From: Blastocatellia bacterium
GTDB lineage: Bacteria > Acidobacteriota > Blastocatellia > HR10
Assembly (NCBI GenBank): GCA_025055075.1
Contig: JANWYV010000014.1
Location: 1-64,000 of the forward strand
Direction of reading: 5' to 3'
DNA length: 64,000 bases
Shown here: positions 43,092 to 50,034 of the stretch, piece after piece
How the letters are laid out: each line of letters opens with the position of its first letter
Numbering within the stretch: the stretch's first letter is position 1
Notes under the pieces: model-generated
Told to the model about the DNA's origin: nothing
What the model saw: the letters and a program-made list of their open reading frames with translations, nothing else
The model's database searches: none
Program-made: the position numbers and the translations under genes

Positions 43092-43123
43092 TTACCTTCA
43101 GCTTCTCGAGGAGACGGACGCAA

Positions 43124-45157
43124 ATGATGGACTCGTTAGGCTCCTTCGCCATTTTGCTCGCTCTGACGGCCTGCGCGTACGCGTTCCTCGTGGGAATCGT
43201 CGCTCACCTGAAGGGACATCGCGTCCTCGGAGCGATGGCGCGACGGGCGGGCATCACAGTCTTCCCCACCTTGAGCGTCGCGATCGCTTGTTTGTGGGGA
43301 CTCTTCCTCACTGATGAGTTCTCGATCGCGTATGTGGCGAATCACAGCAATCGCGATCTCCCCCTCTTGTACAAATTCGCGGCGCTCTGGTCGGGGCAAG
43401 AGGGATCGCTGCTCTTCTGGAGTTGGATCCTCTCCGGCTATATGTTCCTCGTGCTCCTGAAGCATCGAGAGGAGGGAGAATTGCGGCCGCTCGCTGGCGT
43501 GATCCTGGCCGGGATTCAGCTCTTCTTTCTCCTCCTGAACGCCTTCGTCGTGAGTCCGTTCCGCGTCTTGGCGGAGGTGGCTCCCGATGGGGCGACGCGT
43601 CCGTTCGTGCCGATGGATGGGCGCGGATTGAATCCGTTGCTGCAGTATCCGGAGATGGTCCTGCATCCTCCGACGCTCTATCTCGGATATGTTGGCTTCT
43701 CCGTCCCCTTCGCCTTCGCATTGGCGGCGTTGATCACGCGATCGCCGGGGGAGCGATGGATTCACGTCACGCGCCGATGGACGATGATCGCCTGGGGGTT
43801 TTTGACCTTGGGCATCTTGATGGGGGCGCATTGGGCCTATGCCGTCCTCGGATGGGGAGGGTATTGGGCATGGGATCCGGTCGAGAACGCTTCGTTCATG
43901 CCGTGGCTGACGGGAACGGCCTTCCTCCACTCCGTGATGATGCAGGAGCGTCGGGGCATGTTGAAGGTCTGGAACGTCTGGCTCGTCTTCATCACCTTCT
44001 TGCTCTGCATCTTCGGTACGTTCCTGACGCGCTCGGGAGTGGTGAGTTCGGTGCATGCGTTCGCGCAATCGCCGATCGGGCATTGGTTCATCGGATTCCT
44101 GCTGATTGTGCTCGCTGTGTGCTTGTTCTTCTTCGCTCGTCGTCGCGACTACTTGCAGAGCGAGCATCGGTTGGAAGCGGTGCTCTCGCGCGAGTCATCC
44201 TTCCTCTTCAACAATCTGGTGCTGTTGGCCGCGTGTTTCGCTGTGCTGTGGGGGACGCTCTTTCCGGTGATCTCGGAGGCGGTGACGGGGAATAAGGTGA
44301 GCGTCGGACCGCCGTTCTTCAATCGGGTGAACATCCCGATCTTCCTGTTCCTGCTCTTGCTGACGGGAGTGGGGCCACTTTTGGCTTGGCGACGGACGTC
44401 GTGGGAGAGTCTGAAGCGGAACTTCACGTATCCGACGCTCATTGGGGTGGCGACCGGCGTGATCCTCTTCGCTCTTGGCGTGAGGAACCTCTATGCCCTG
44501 ATGGCCTTTGGGCTCTCGGCGTTTGTGACGGTCACGATCGTGAGCGAATTCTACCGAGGGGCACGGGTCATCCGTTCGCAGACGGGGCGGACGTGGGGGC
44601 AAGCGCTCTTGGAGCTGACGCTTCGGAACACGCGGCGGTATGGAGGGTACGTCGTGCATTTCGGGATCGTCGTGATGGCCATTGGGATCGCCGGATCGGC
44701 CTTCGATAAGGAACGGGAGATGGAGATGACGGTGGGCTCGACGCTGACGCTGGGCCAGTATGCCGTGACGTTGAAGGATCGGGCGCAGGGGGAGACGCCG
44801 AATTACATCTACGAGCGCCTCACGCTCGAAGTGCGTCGGGGGGATAAACTGCTCACGACGCTTGAGCCGGAGCGACGGCTCTACAAAGCGAGTGAGCAGC
44901 CGTTGACGAAGGTGACGATTCATTCGGGATGGCGCGAGGATCTCTATATCTATTTCGCGGGGGTGAATTCGGAGACGGGAGCGCCGATCGTTCACGCGTA
45001 TGTGAATCCGCTGGTGCGATGGCTCTGGATCGGTGGAGGGATCGTCATGCTGGGAACGTTGCTGGCGCTGCATCCCGGGCGTCGGCCGGTGAAAGTGGCC
45101 GTCTCCGAGCGCGCTCCGGCTCGGGAGAGGGAGGTGGCGTATGCGAAGGGGGATTGA
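43124..45157 (+). CDS. ccmF: Cytochrome c maturation haem lyase CcmF
   Basis: About 677 residues with some 15 membrane segments. It receives haem from CcmE and attaches it to apocytochrome c at the periplasmic face. The haem-handling WWD motif WGGYWAWDPVENASFMPWL and the following LTGTAFLHSVMM are clear; a second conserved stretch is SGVVSSVHAFAQSPIG. A soluble C-terminal domain precedes the last helix. GAGGAGA nine bases upstream fixes the ATG at 43124. First gene of a tightly packed ccm operon; ccmH begins 17 bases before its end. Confidence 0.95.
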   Translation: MMDSLGSFAILLALTACAYAFLVGIVAHLKGHRVLGAMARRAGITVFPTLSVAIACLWGLFLTDEFSIAYVANHSNRDLPLLYKFAALWSGQEGSLLFWSWILSGYMFLVLLKHREEGELRPLAGVILAGIQLFFLLLNAFVVSPFRVLAEVAPDGATRPFVPMDGRGLNPLLQYPEMVLHPPTLYLGYVGFSVPFAFALAALITRSPGERWIHVTRRWTMIAWGFLTLGILMGAHWAYAVLGWGGYWAWDPVENASFMPWLTGTAFLHSVMMQERRGMLKVWNVWLVFITFLLCIFGTFLTRSGVVSSVHAFAQSPIGHWFIGFLLIVLAVCLFFFARRRDYLQSEHRLEAVLSRESSFLFNNLVLLAACFAVLWGTLFPVISEAVTGNKVSVGPPFFNRVNIPIFLFLLLLTGVGPLLAWRRTSWESLKRNFTYPTLIGVATGVILFALGVRNLYALMAFGLSAFVTVTIVSEFYRGARVIRSQTGRTWGQALLELTLRNTRRYGGYVVHFGIVVMAIGIAGSAFDKEREMEMTVGSTLTLGQYAVTLKDRAQGETPNYIYERLTLEVRRGDKLLTTLEPERRLYKASEQPLTKVTIHSGWREDLYIYFAGVNSETGAPIVHAYVNPLVRWLWIGGGIVMLGTLLALHPGRRPVKVAVSERAPAREREVAYAKGD

Positions 45158-45653
45158 GGGTCGAAGCGGACGGTGGATCGGGCTCTTCTTTCTCGGCGCG
45201 CTCCTCATCGTTCCGTACCTGGTGCATGCGCAATCTTCGGAAGCTCTCGAAGAGCGGGTCAAGCGGATCGGAAAGAAGCTCCTTTGCCTCTGCGGATGCA
45301 ATCAGATCTTGGTCGAATGCAATCATGTGAACTGCCCGTTCTCCGGGCCAGCCATCGAGATGTTGCGGCAGGCGGTGCGGCGATACGAGAGCGATGATCT
45401 GGCCATTCAGGCGATGATCCAGCAGTATGGGACGGCCGTGCTGGCGGCCCCTCCGGCGCAGGGGTTCAATCTGGCGGCGTGGATCACGCCGTTTGCGGCG
45501 GCGACAGGGGGACTCGTGCTCATCGCTTTGGTACTTCGACGGTGGTCTCGGCGACACGCGGCGCCGACGGAGAGCCCGACGCTTCCCGACGATCCCGCTT
45601 GGCGCGAGCGCGTGCGTCAAGAAATTGAGAAGGAATTGGGAGGGCTCTCGTGA
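45141..45653 (+). CDS. ccmH: Apocytochrome c reductant CcmH (CxCxC variant)
   Basis: 170 residues. A signal segment (about 14-30) is followed by a three-helix CcmH domain and a membrane anchor (about 110-132). Canonical CcmH has LRCxxC; here the site reads LLCLCGCNQ with C49, C51 and C53, followed by C60 and C65 (ECNHVNC). CcmH keeps the haem-binding thiols of apocytochrome reduced and works with CcmF. GGAGG six bases upstream supports the ATG at 45141, inside the end of ccmF. Confidence 0.9.
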   Translation: MRRGIEGRSGRWIGLFFLGALLIVPYLVHAQSSEALEERVKRIGKKLLCLCGCNQILVECNHVNCPFSGPAIEMLRQAVRRYESDDLAIQAMIQQYGTAVLAAPPAQGFNLAAWITPFAAATGGLVLIALVLRRWSRRHAAPTESPTLPDDPAWRERVRQEIEKELGGLS

Positions 45654-45949
45654 CCGTCCTCGTCGTAATCTTGTGCAGCATTCTGGCGCTGGTGACGCTC
45701 CTCTACATCTTCTTCGAGGAAGCGCCCGAGGTCGAGCGCCGCAGGGATCGCTGGGCCGTCCTGATGGAGAAGAAGGAACAGTTGCTCGATAATCTGCGGG
45801 ACTTGCGCTTCGAATATCGCGCGGGGAAGCTCTCGGAGGCTGATTACGAGCGAGCGCGGGCGACCTTGGAAGCCGAGATCGCTGCCGTGCTCGCGGAATT
45901 GGAGAAGCTCTCATCGGAAGATGCGGCCCGCGTCGCGCCGCAACGTTGA
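45650..45949 (+). CDS. Small CcmI-like membrane protein
   Basis: 99 residues. One N-terminal membrane helix (3-22) is followed by a charged coiled-coil containing EYRAGKLSEADYERARATLEAEI, the motif seen at the start of CcmI cytoplasmic loops. CcmI-family proteins hold apocytochrome c for CcmF/H. The TPR part of full CcmI is missing. The GTG at 45650 overlaps the ccmH stop, so coupling is strong. I infer a minimal CcmI-like role; a generic coiled-coil partner is also possible. Confidence 0.7.
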   Translation: MTVLVVILCSILALVTLLYIFFEEAPEVERRRDRWAVLMEKKEQLLDNLRDLRFEYRAGKLSEADYERARATLEAEIAAVLAELEKLSSEDAARVAPQR

Positions 45950-45976
45950 AGCGCGAGCACACATTAAGGAGGGAAC

Positions 45977-47185
45977 GTGAACCGAAGGTCTGGTCCTAGA
46001 CGATCGCTCTCATGGTATCTCCGATGGTGCGGATGGGTGTGTCTTCTCGGCGCCCCGGTGCTCGTGCGCGCGGAGGTGCGGGGCACAGTGATCAACGGCA
46101 CAACGGGGAAGCCAGCAGCCGGCGTCGAGGTGCATTTGGTCGTGCTCGAAGAGGGGATGCAAGTCGCCGAGAAGACGCAGACGGATGCGCAGGGACGGTT
46201 CGCCTTCTCAACCGCGGTGACGAAGCCCGCGATGGTGCGGGTGACCTATCAAGGCGTCAACTATCACGAGACGCTCTCTCCCGGGAGCACGTCCGTCACG
46301 CTGCGCATCTACGACGCGCGCGCGACCGGGACCTATGCGGTCGAGCGGCTCACGTATCTTGTGCAACCGATGGAGGGGCGTCTGTTGATCGGGCGGGAAT
46401 ATCTCGTTCAGAATCGGACGACGCCGCCGGTGACGCTCTCCCGTCCGGAAGGAGTGTTTGTATTCGCTCTTCCTGAAGGCGCGCGTCCCGAACGGGTCTC
46501 GGTGATCGGAGCCAGTGGGATGCCGCTGGCGATCGCGGCGCGCCCGACGAACGATGGGAGCTGGCGCATCGAACATCCGTTGCGACCGGGGGCGACGCCG
46601 TTCTTCGTCGTCACCCAACTCCCGTACGAGCAGGAGCAGGCACAGATTCGGGAAGTCTTGCCTTGGAATGTGGAACGCGTGCGGCTGCTTGTGCCCGAGC
46701 CGATGAAGGTCGAAGCTCCGGGCTTTCGACCGCTGGGGTCAGAGCAGGGGCTCTCGGTCTATGTCCTCGACAATGCCCGCGCCGGGATGGAGATCGCCTG
46801 GAGCGTGAGCGGTCGCGCGCCAAATGTTTTGGCCGAGGAAGCAGAGGGAGAGGCAAGAGGGACTGTTCGTGCCGTAGCGGGTCCGATCGCTAAGCGGCAA
46901 TGGATCCTTCTGGCCGCCTTGGCCGCGGCCTTCGCCATGAGCAGTGTGTTCGCCGTGCGGCGGCAGAAGGTGCGCGCGACGCCGGCGAAAGAGCGATCGT
47001 CGGAATCTCCTGCCGCCGCTCCTCCTCAAACGAGTGAGATGGCGGCGTTGAAGGATGAGCTTTTTGCGCTCGAACTCCAGCGACAGCGCGGGGAGATCTC
47101 CGAAGAGGACTACGAGGCCAAGCGTCGCGCGCTTCAGCGTTCCCTTGAAGCCGCGTTGCGCGCCGATGCTGGAACGTCCTCGTGA
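45977..47185 (+). CDS. Secreted carboxypeptidase-regulatory-like protein with CcmI-like tail
   Basis: 402 residues. A signal peptide (about 15-30) is followed by a CarboxypepD_reg-like domain (about 35-110, VRGTVINGTTGKPAAGVEVHLV). A larger beta-rich domain follows, then a membrane helix (about 308-324). The cytoplasmic tail has LKDELFALELQRQRGEISEEDYEAKRR, repeating the motif of the 99-residue neighbour. AAGGAGG four bases before the GTG fixes the start. Its place inside the ccm operon suggests work in cytochrome c assembly, but no known family covers the whole chain. Confidence 0.7.
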   Translation: MNRRSGPRRSLSWYLRWCGWVCLLGAPVLVRAEVRGTVINGTTGKPAAGVEVHLVVLEEGMQVAEKTQTDAQGRFAFSTAVTKPAMVRVTYQGVNYHETLSPGSTSVTLRIYDARATGTYAVERLTYLVQPMEGRLLIGREYLVQNRTTPPVTLSRPEGVFVFALPEGARPERVSVIGASGMPLAIAARPTNDGSWRIEHPLRPGATPFFVVTQLPYEQEQAQIREVLPWNVERVRLLVPEPMKVEAPGFRPLGSEQGLSVYVLDNARAGMEIAWSVSGRAPNVLAEEAEGEARGTVRAVAGPIAKRQWILLAALAAAFAMSSVFAVRRQKVRATPAKERSSESPAAAPPQTSEMAALKDELFALELQRQRGEISEEDYEAKRRALQRSLEAALRADAGTSS

Positions 47186-47296
47186 AGGCGATGCGATCAT
47201 CATGGCGCGTGGCAAGGCTTCTGCGGTATCTTGTGTGTGTTGCATGATGGGACATCGGATCAGTCCGCCACAAGAGATCGTTCGAGGAGGAAGGCG

Positions 47297-47719
47297 ATGA
47301 GCAATCCGAAGGTGAAATTCGCCGTCGCCATTGCGATTCTGTTGGGAGCGCTGGCGTGGTTAGCCGTGATCGGCATGCAGGAGAGCAAGGCCTACTACAT
47401 CACGGTCGCCGAGTTGAAGCGCATGGGCGAGAGCGTTCGGGAGAAGCGACTGCGAGTGGGCGGGCGCGTCGTTCCGGGCAGTATTCAGCGCGAAGGGCGA
47501 TACGTGAGGTTCCTGCTCGAGCAGGAGGACGAGACGCTGCCCGTCGTCTACGTGGGCAGGGATCCTGTGCCCGACACCTTCGTGGATCATGCAGAGGCGC
47601 TCGTCGAGGGACGATGGGGGGCGGATGGCGTCTTCCAAGCGCAGAAGCTGCAGGCCAAATGCGCCTCCAAGTACGAACCGGCGGAAGGCACTGGGGCTTC
47701 GGCTTCGTCGGGACGATGA
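47297..47719 (+). CDS. ccmE: Haem chaperone CcmE (CxxxY variant)
   Basis: 140 residues. A signal-anchor helix (about 8-26) is followed by an OB-fold domain (about 48-120) that shields haem. In most CcmE the covalent haem ligand is His in HxxxY; here the site is C122-A-S-K-Y126, so Cys stands in for His. The same change is known from Desulfovibrio-type and archaeal CcmE. GAGGAGG upstream supports the ATG at 47297. Separated from the preceding gene by 111 bases. Confidence 0.92.
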   Translation: MSNPKVKFAVAIAILLGALAWLAVIGMQESKAYYITVAELKRMGESVREKRLRVGGRVVPGSIQREGRYVRFLLEQEDETLPVVYVGRDPVPDTFVDHAEALVEGRWGADGVFQAQKLQAKCASKYEPAEGTGASASSGR

Positions 47720-47769
47720 GCACGCCAGCGCGCGCGGTGGCTCGTCTTTGATTGTCCGCATGCTCGCCA

Positions 47770-48480
47770 ATGGGTGACGTCCTCAATTCCAAGGCACTCG
47801 TCTTTGATGGCGTCTGTAAGACGTTCGGCGAGACCGCTGCCCTCTGGCAGGTGAGTTTCACCCTCGGCCCTGGGGAGATTGTGGCCGTCACAGGCGGCAA
47901 TGGTGCCGGGAAATCCACGCTCCTTCGTGTGGCCGCCTTTTTATTGAAGCCGACCTCGGGCAGCGTCTTCGTCTTCGGTCAACCGCGTCCGACGCCGGAG
48001 GTGAAGCGGCGGATCGGTCTTCTCGGGCACGCTCCGTTCCTCTACGAGGAATTGTCGGCGGAGGAGAATTTGAAGTTCTACGCTGCCCTTTATGCCTTAG
48101 GGCGAGGGGCCGATGACCGCATCGCGCGCGTACTGCGAGAGGTCGGGGCCGAAGATTTTCGACATCGTCCCGTCCGCACGCTCTCGCATGGGATGCGGAA
48201 GAGGGTCTCCTTGGCGCGCGCGATGCTCTCGGATCCGGATCTGCTTCTGTTCGATGAACCCTTCTCCGGGCTTGATGTGGCGAGCGTCGAGCGCGTGCGC
48301 GCCTTGATGATCGAATGGCGCCAGCGGGGGAAAGCGTTGCTCGTCACAACGCATCAGGTGGAATTGTTGGAGGGAATCGCCGATGGGGAGCTTGTCCTCG
48401 ACCGAGGGCGCGTCCTCTGCTGGCGGGCGCCGGTCCTTCGCGAGTCGGCGATCCCTCATTCTGTGACGGAACGCGCATGA
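47770..48480 (+). CDS. ccmA: Haem-handling ABC ATPase CcmA
   Basis: About 236 residues. Walker A is TGGNGAGKSTLL, signature LSHGMRKRVSLARAM, Walker B LLLFDEPFSGLD, switch His VTTHQVE. LSHG in place of LSGG is a normal CcmA trait. With CcmB it uses ATP to release holo-CcmE from CcmC. The start is uncertain: the ATG at 47770 lacks a clear ribosome site, and a TTG at 47752 is in frame. The stop overlaps ccmB as ATGA. Confidence 0.92.
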   Translation: MGDVLNSKALVFDGVCKTFGETAALWQVSFTLGPGEIVAVTGGNGAGKSTLLRVAAFLLKPTSGSVFVFGQPRPTPEVKRRIGLLGHAPFLYEELSAEENLKFYAALYALGRGADDRIARVLREVGAEDFRHRPVRTLSHGMRKRVSLARAMLSDPDLLLFDEPFSGLDVASVERVRALMIEWRQRGKALLVTTHQVELLEGIADGELVLDRGRVLCWRAPVLRESAIPHSVTERA

Positions 48481-49151
48481 GCTATTGGACGGCGGCGACG
48501 CGCATCGTGGCGAAGGATCTCTTGAGCGAAGCGCGAACGCGCGAGATGACCAACGCCATGCTCTTTTTCGCACTCCTGGTGCTCGTGCTCTTCAGCTTCT
48601 CCTTTCAGCCGGCTTCGGATGAGGAACGTCGGTTGGCCGCGGGCGTGCTGTGGATCGCCTTCCTCTTCGCCGGATTGAGCGTGCTCGATCGCTCGTTCCT
48701 GCGCGAGCGGGTGAACGATTGTCTGGATGCCCTGCGATTGACGCCCGCTTCGGCGAGCGCCCTCTTCGTGGGCAAATGCGTGGCGAACGCGCTCTTCCTG
48801 CTTCTGGCGGAGGTCATCTTGGTGCCGCTCTTTCTCATCTTCTTCGACCTCTCGTTTCGCGGCGATGTGGGAACGTGGCTCCTGGCGCTCATGCTGGGGA
48901 CGTGGGCGCTTGTCGTGAACGGGACGTTCTTCGCGGCGATGACGACGAACGTGCGGAGCCGCGAGTTGTTGTTGCCGCTTTTGCTTCTGCCGATCTCGGT
49001 GCCGGCGTTGATCGCCGTCGTCGAGGCGACGTCGGCGGCGCTCCTTGGTGAAGGCGCGATGGGCGTGTGGATCCAGGTGCTCATCGCGTTCGATGTCATC
49101 TACACGACGCTCGCCATGCTGCTTTTTGAAACGGTCCTGGAGGGAGCATGA
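48477..49151 (+). CDS. ccmB: Haem exporter permease CcmB
   Basis: 224-residue membrane protein with six hydrophobic segments. The family signature near the N-terminus is ATRIVAKDLLSEARTREM, and DRSFLRERVNDCLDALRLTP follows the second helix. Partner of CcmA in the release of haem-loaded CcmE. Overlaps both neighbours by four bases. Confidence 0.94.
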   Translation: MSYWTAATRIVAKDLLSEARTREMTNAMLFFALLVLVLFSFSFQPASDEERRLAAGVLWIAFLFAGLSVLDRSFLRERVNDCLDALRLTPASASALFVGKCVANALFLLLAEVILVPLFLIFFDLSFRGDVGTWLLALMLGTWALVVNGTFFAAMTTNVRSRELLLPLLLLPISVPALIAVVEATSAALLGEGAMGVWIQVLIAFDVIYTTLAMLLFETVLEGA

Positions 49152-49864
49152 GGAACGAATGGACGCTTCCGCGTTGGTGGTTTGGACTTGTCGGCGTCAC
49201 TGGCGTCGCGCTGATCCTGGGCGTGCTGCATGCGCTTTGGTTCGCGCCGACGGAGCGGACGATGGGGACCGTTCAGCGCATCTTCTACTATCACGTCAGC
49301 TCGGCGTGGACGGCCTTCGTCGCCTTTTTCATCAACTTCCTGGCGTGCATCGCGTACCTGAAGACGCGGCGTCCGAAGTGGGATGCCGTGGCTGTGAGCG
49401 CGGCTGAAGTGGGCGTGGTCTTCAGCACGGTGAATCTCGTTACCGGACCGATCTGGGCGAAGCCAGTGTGGGGGATTTGGTGGACATGGGACGCGCGACT
49501 GACGTCAACATTGGTGATGTGGCTGCTCTATGTGAGCTATCTCCTCTTGCGACAGTTCACCGCTGAGCAACCGAGCCAGCGCGTCTGGGCGGCGGCCTTT
49601 GGCATTTTCGCCTTCGTGGATGTCCCCCTCGTGTATCTCTCGATTCGGCTCTGGCGGACGCAGCATCCGGGGCCGGTCATCGCCGGAGGGGAGGGGTCGG
49701 GCATTGATCCCCAGATGTTCCTGGCGTTGCACGTATGCTTTCTCGCCTTCCTCTTGCTCTTCGCCGTGCTCTTTTACTGGCGTTATCGCTTAGAGGGACA
49801 ACGGGCGGAGCTGGCCGAGTTGCGCGCGCGATTGCATCGGCTGCAACTAGAGCGATTGGCCTGA
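49148..49864 (+). CDS. ccmC: Haem-handling protein CcmC
   Basis: 238 residues, six membrane helices. The periplasmic WWD motif WGIWWTWDARLTSTLVMWLLY and flanking His (FYYHVSSAW and the later LALHVCF) bind haem and load it on CcmE. The last 25 residues form a coiled-coil extension not usual in short CcmC. Followed by the small ccmD-like gene after 11 bases. Confidence 0.95.
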   Translation: MRNEWTLPRWWFGLVGVTGVALILGVLHALWFAPTERTMGTVQRIFYYHVSSAWTAFVAFFINFLACIAYLKTRRPKWDAVAVSAAEVGVVFSTVNLVTGPIWAKPVWGIWWTWDARLTSTLVMWLLYVSYLLLRQFTAEQPSQRVWAAAFGIFAFVDVPLVYLSIRLWRTQHPGPVIAGGEGSGIDPQMFLALHVCFLAFLLLFAVLFYWRYRLEGQRAELAELRARLHRLQLERLA

Positions 49865-49875
49865 GAGGGGGAGAG

Positions 49876-50034
49876 ATGCGAAACCTCGTCATCGCGATGA
49901 TCGTCGCCTGGCTCATTCATCTGGTGTATTTGCTGAGTCTCGCCCGAAGGCAGCGGCGGCTTCAGCAAGAGGCTGAGGAGTTGCGACAGATCGCAGAACG
50001 CTTGGAGCGATCCTCACCTCGCTCCATGTCGTGA
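49876..50034 (+). CDS. ccmD: Small haem exporter subunit CcmD
   Basis: 52 residues with one N-terminal membrane helix (NLVIAMIVAWLIHLVYLLSL) followed by a charged helix (RRQRRLQQEAEELRQIAERL), the size and shape of CcmD, which tethers CcmABC to CcmE. GAGGGGGAGAG precedes the ATG. Last gene of the ccm operon. Confidence 0.8.
   Translation: MRNLVIAMIVAWLIHLVYLLSLARRQRRLQQEAEELRQIAERLERSSPRSMS

Follow-up and report, generated by a model that had tools for sequence, protein, structure and literature searches.

The window, i.e. the whole stretch of 64,000 nucleotides of Blastocatellia DNA that we analyzed, encodes a run of nine plus-strand cytochrome c maturation (ccm) genes between positions 43118 and 50034, which we delimited using the list of open reading frames and profile searches (Table 1). 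The CcmABCDEF core of System I*, the variant of the maturation machinery with a CxxxY CcmE, is present according to Pfam and NCBIfam profiles, with the CcmD-like protein just below the cut-off and encoded at the same position as in the operons of relatives. For comparison with the scores listed, the Pfam cut-offs are 24.6 bits for PF03100 and 25 bits for PF03918. The window CcmF scores 461-464 bits against the TIGR00353/NrfE models; its frame is already open from 43046, and its start codon is uncertain. The ccmE gene is the fifth of the run and lies directly ahead of ccmA. This placement differs from the usual order of Cys-type operons elsewhere, E-F-H-I-(CarboxypepD_reg)-A-B-C-D, which is the rule in Acidobacteriota and is found again in other phyla. 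Neither the open reading frames nor Pfam revealed a thioredoxin-like gene between ccmF and the ccmD-like gene (43118-50034), in line with a previous sequence-only reading of this DNA, which had described the operon as lacking ccmG.

Table 1. Genes of the ccm run in the window, with the profile matches and motifs on which their annotation is based.
Gene or product	Coordinates	Strand	Profile matches	Motifs and remarks
ccmF, cytochrome c haem lyase	43118..45157	+	CcmF_C 253 bits, Cytochrom_C_asm 141 bits (Pfam)	WWD motif WGGYWAWDPVEN present
ccmH, Cys-rich subclass	45141..45653	+	PF03918 65 bits	C49-x-C51-G-C53...C60...C65, then TM helix
Minimal CcmI-like protein	45650..45949	+	TIGR03142 16.5 bits, below cut-off	Position kept in related operons
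CarboxypepD_reg ectodomain, TM helix and CcmI-like hairpin protein	45977..47185	+	PF13620 35 bits	
ccmE, Cys type	47297..47719	+	PF03100 86 bits	KCASKY
ccmA, haem exporter ATPase	47752..48480	+	TIGR01189 146 bits, above cut-off	
ccmB	48480..49151	+	PF03379 131 bits	
ccmC	49148..49864	+	PF01578 103 bits; TIGR01191 135 bits	WGIWWTWD
ccmD-like small TM protein, 52 aa	49876..50034	+	TIGR04391 CcmD_alt_fam 23.2 bits (cut-off 24)	

The translated CcmE has 140 aa and a C-terminal end that reads ...QAKCASKYEPAEGTGASASSGR. Its residues 122-126, CASKY, align with HDENY of the E. coli protein in an alignment with the PDB structures 8CE8 and 1SR3 (2KCT was also among the structures aligned), and the replacement of HxxxY by CASKY noticed in the sequence-only reading is thereby confirmed. 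Cys-type and His-type CcmEs differ over the whole haem-site segment: KC[PAG][ST][KR][YF] is common to all 133 Cys-type proteins compared, with an invariant K before the Cys and K or R at +3. CASKY is found again together with a CxCGC-type CcmH at locus L057, and on its own at L052, L060 and L062. The commonest Cys-type motif in our survey is CPSKY, which is also the main motif in the review that listed System I* with CxxxY CcmE in delta-proteobacteria, Chloroflexi and Firmicutes (Stevens et al. 2011, PMC3601427). Six loci of Chloroflexota (L287-L289 and L291-L293) have CPS(K/R)F, with F replacing Y, alongside a CxxC CcmH and, in most of them, a thioredoxin-like gene. The sequence-only reading had proposed that relatives with HxxxY would point to a sequence error. 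Such relatives exist, but those with CASKY or CPSKY abound and the whole segment differs, so a sequencing or assembly error in the CcmE and CcmH motifs is practically out of the question. Experiments on M. acetivorans CcmE showed that haem attachment and cytochrome c maturation depend on the haem-binding Cys (PMC9084895), and Desulfovibrio CcmE is reported to bind haem by the Cys of CxxxY (Goddard 2010, cited in PMC3601427). By homology to the Desulfovibrio and Methanosarcina proteins, Cys122 is the probable haem ligand of the window CcmE. A point against is that in D. vulgaris the haem is reported to be bound non-covalently through this residue (PMC3884852).

The motif region of CcmH reads KKLLCLCGCNQILVECNHVNC. 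It contains the CxCxC that the sequence-only reading had reported in place of CxxC, and two further cysteines that were absent from its listing. LLCLCGC occupies the place where the redox motif LRCxxC is usual in the PF03918 family, a feature that the window protein lacks. Across 44 Cys-rich CcmH relatives, CxCxC is constant: numbered as in the window protein, C49, C51, C53 and C60 occur in every one, and at least 90% also have C65. Searching the PDB by sequence with the window CcmH gave no match. Its AlphaFold2 model (mean pLDDT 90) has the three-helix-bundle periplasmic domain and the TM helix of the CcmH family, and Foldseek ranks two known structures of CcmH, 2HL7 and 2KW0, first among its PDB matches (for 2HL7, TM-score 0.69 on target and probability 1.00). 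The cysteines of the predicted model lie in the loop joining the first two helices, at the site of LRCPKC, the redox motif of classical CcmH (PMC3884852). We found no description of a CxCxC...C...C CcmH in the openly accessible literature. What appears to be new here is the CcmH subclass with a five-Cys motif; the Cys-type CcmE itself is that of the known System I*. Among other loci, two distinct genes for Cys-rich CcmH lie on opposite strands of the L140 contig, and the CcmH-like proteins of L290 and L246 have partly lost the loop cysteines (LICPTASG, LKSPFGPHMLDMC).

Two proteins of the run resemble CcmI, a family with a TM and CcmI-1 part followed by TPR. Both match CcmI-1 below the cut-off (16.5 and 21.9 bits against TIGR03142, the latter over residues 309-399 of the 45977-47185 protein), and no TPR domain was found in either of them. 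The smaller one, at 45650-45949, consists of one TM segment and a helical hairpin (GKLSEADYERAR). The AlphaFold2 model of the larger one (pLDDT 83) has a beta-sandwich ectodomain with strands at 34-278, a TM helix at 304-331 and a hairpin at 352-400; the matches from a fold search were all generic beta-sandwiches with low TM-scores and are uninformative. Members of its family occur in Cys-type operons from several phyla. Relatives are found at L066, L068, L101, L119, L137 and L157, and we found no established name for the family. This protein may take the place of the TPR domain of CcmI and is a candidate accessory subunit.

Searches of the 3.02-Mb assembly, which is 98.8% complete, identified exactly one CcmE and one CcmH. 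The sequence-only reading would have been contradicted by a canonical second set elsewhere in the genome: there is none for ccmE and ccmH in this assembly, but possible stand-ins for CcmG are encoded, as is DsbD. The latter is a single full-length protein, whose frame of 782 aa comprises an N-terminal part, a membrane part and a C-terminal thioredoxin part. The genome has 13 redoxin matches, among which five WCxxC redoxin/TlpA-like proteins (L036, L037, L038, L040 and L042) have 25-40% identity to the CcmG-type proteins of related operons. There are several TlpA/CcmG-like candidates outside the operon and none can be named as the CcmG; an operon without CcmG does not mean that the function is absent. 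The genome also encodes multihaem proteins with 5-11 CxxCH motifs, and therefore cytochrome c substrates exist. Multihaem cytochromes with 10-11 CxxCH motifs are clustered at L318:2626-10971. Finally, ResB is encoded on contig C20 (L197:10834-12381) and a CcsA-type protein of 516 aa with the motif WGRYWGWDPKE on contig C32 (L313:8203-9750), so that this genome may have System II as well as System I*. System I is patchy within the class: in our survey of the phylum, CcmE occurs there only in the window genome and in three His-type genomes of another family, while ResB is found in 53 of the 58 genomes of the class.

To place the operon among its relatives, we compared stretches of at most 20 kb around the ccm loci of the phylum, where 186 of 297 genomes have CcmE, together with 80 named loci retrieved with a Cys-type CcmE profile, and extended the comparison to the phyla to which L135 (Gemmatimonadota) and L137 (Chloroflexota) belong. 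Motif pairing was counted over 154 non-redundant loci. Cys-rich CcmH occurs with a Cys-type CcmE in all 47 loci that have it, which belong to several phyla, and never with a His-type CcmE; 46 of these 47 loci have no CcmG in the operon. Where a His-type CcmE is accompanied by CcmH, the latter is invariably of the CxxC type (17/17), with CcmG in 15 of the operons. The three features of the window operon (Cys-type CcmE, altered CcmH and no CcmG) co-occur in dozens of loci. The stricter rule by which a Cys-type CcmE always goes with a Cys-rich CcmH or none was rejected: a CxxC CcmH accompanies Cys-type CcmE at nine loci, and at L298 and L300, which the motif rule had missed, with CcmG in 7 of the 11 operons. 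These include the above-mentioned Chloroflexota loci with CPS(K/R)F, L298/L300, L135 and L162. No CcmH is seen in the operons of 75 Cys-type loci, some of which reach contig ends. CPVC-type CcmH is encoded elsewhere in genomes of Dadabacteria, Deltaproteobacteria and Dehalococcoidia with CcmH-less ccm operons, and none was found in the Desulfovibrio-type and Deferribacterota genomes tested. One Gemmatimonadota genome, G339, has two ccm sets, each with matched parts: HSNEY CcmE, CPVCQ CcmH and CcmG in the one (L237), CASRY CcmE and CQCGC CcmH without CcmG in the other (L238).

The phylogeny of motif types that the sequence-only reading had suggested as a check shows that they pair by clade, without significance for independent pairs. 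On a CcmF tree of 71 loci, the CcmE type changes 3 times and the CcmH type 4 times, and a test on independent pairs is not significant and cannot reach significance, for which at least six concordant pairs are needed. We discounted the Fisher p of about 2e-10 obtained from the plain counts, as the tree needs only 3-4 changes per label. Because of this small number of changes, the pairing holds as a description at the level of clades and need not reflect repeated independent co-adaptation. In the same tree the window CcmF clusters with Latescibacterota and with a genome of Acidobacteriota from outside the class.

The core genes A, B, C, D-like, E, F and H and the CcmI-like genes are all present with intact motifs; gene content, motifs, predicted fold and the pairing of motif types are what the analysis shows directly. 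We consider it likely that the operon is a complete, working System I* of the Cys-rich-CcmH subclass. In the mechanism that we propose, CcmABCD would hand haem to CcmE, which would hold it via Cys122 instead of a histidine; CcmF, CcmH and the two CcmI-like proteins would then pass the haem on to the apocytochrome. The Cys-rich CcmH would keep the three-helix fold with a widened active-site loop (C49-x-C51-G-C53, C60, C65), which would let it keep or restore the apocytochrome thiols without a dedicated CcmG in the operon. Its electrons would come from the DsbD of this genome, either directly or via a TlpA-like thioredoxin. Both the redox role of the extra CcmH cysteines and this electron route are inferred. 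The sequence-only reading had suggested that the hand-over of haem involves a different thiol chemistry; the altered cysteines of CcmH may instead serve in apocytochrome reduction or bind a structural metal. A bolder version, which we consider less likely than not, is that the Cys-rich CcmH forms a distinct thiol or metal-thiolate centre doing the work of both CcmG and CcmH and matched to a Cys haem carrier. There would then be a second thiol chemistry, composed of CcmE-Cys, five-Cys CcmH and a beta-sandwich CcmI-like subunit, over many bacterial phyla.

The extra cysteines could also form a purely structural metal site, e.g. Zn-Cys4, while a TlpA-like thioredoxin from another locus reduces the apocytochrome thiols and the thiol chemistry is ordinary. 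Four invariant and one near-invariant Cys in a short inter-helix loop do resemble a metal site, the genome encodes DsbD and several thioredoxin-fold proteins with WCxxC outside the operon, and four loci with Cys-rich CcmH (L072, L074, L079 and L100) have a TlpA-like gene on the opposite strand adjoining the operon. However, five cysteines fit a simple four-ligand site poorly, even if one could be spare, and the relative at L066 has no C65; on balance we find this account rather doubtful. It is unlikely that System II matures the cytochromes of this organism and that the ccm operon is an additional route, specialised or acquired by horizontal transfer, or is losing its function; all nine ccm genes are intact with their catalytic motifs, which argues against decay. 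The presence of ResB and a CcsA-type protein, the prevalence of ResB and rarity of CcmE in the class, and the grouping of the window CcmF with genomes from outside the class are what one would expect in that case, but the genes for ResB and CcsA are on separate contigs and form a putative pair. With both encoded, the window ccm operon may not be the main maturation route.

The sequence-only reading had described the locus as an intermediate or third kind of Ccm system. The combination of a CcmE typical of System I* with a CcmH typical of classical System I could indeed suggest a transitional form between the two. We regard this as very improbable: Cys-rich CcmH is a broad class over many phyla, the CcmF proteins of operons that encode it make up one large part of the tree instead of falling between the types, and earlier work already reports CcmH in System I* bacteria (PMC3601427). 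The Cys-type CcmE is that of the described System I*, and the tree shows a broad clade. For the complete System I* that we favour, a Cys-rich CcmH tied to Cys-type CcmE and to the lack of an operon CcmG provides a concrete candidate for CcmG-free assembly. Its wide distribution corrects the notion that CcmH is just missing from System I* bacteria, and the two matched sets of G339 are a natural experiment on why Cys and His are not interchangeable in CcmE.

System I* has been described in Desulfovibrio, archaea and other bacteria (Allen 2006, Goddard 2010, Stevens 2011, Gupta 2022). The window operon resembles it in its CxxxY CcmE, in having no CcmG gene within the operon and in the presence of CcmABCDF. 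Unlike the experimentally studied examples, which are without CcmH, it has a five-Cys CcmH, as do many bacterial relatives, and it encodes two CcmI-like proteins without TPR. The original definition of System I*, from 2006, reportedly included the lack of CcmH, and the window operon does encode a CcmH (65 bits against PF03918). As for CcmG, none is found in the operon and TlpA/CcmG-like proteins are encoded elsewhere in the genome. The statement in the sequence-only reading that System I* lacks both CcmG and CcmH applies to the studied examples, but CcmH is kept in about one third of the bacteria with Cys-type CcmE and its absence is not characteristic of System I* (Stevens et al. 2011, PMC3601427). 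With classical System I (CcmABCDEFGH of E. coli) the operon shares CcmA, B, C, E and F and a CcmH of the 2HL7/2KW0 fold; it differs from the HxxxY CcmE, CxxC CcmH, operon-encoded CcmG and TPR-containing CcmI of that system. NrfEFG are paralogues of CcmF/H/I that serve the CxxCK haem of NrfA. The window CcmF matches the NrfE models and its CcmH matches NrfF weakly (24.9 bits), but these scores are far below the Nrf-specific cut-offs and the genes of the operon make up a complete ccm set. System II (ResB/CcsA), proteins of which this genome encodes outside the operon, performs the same task with a different machinery that does without CcmE.
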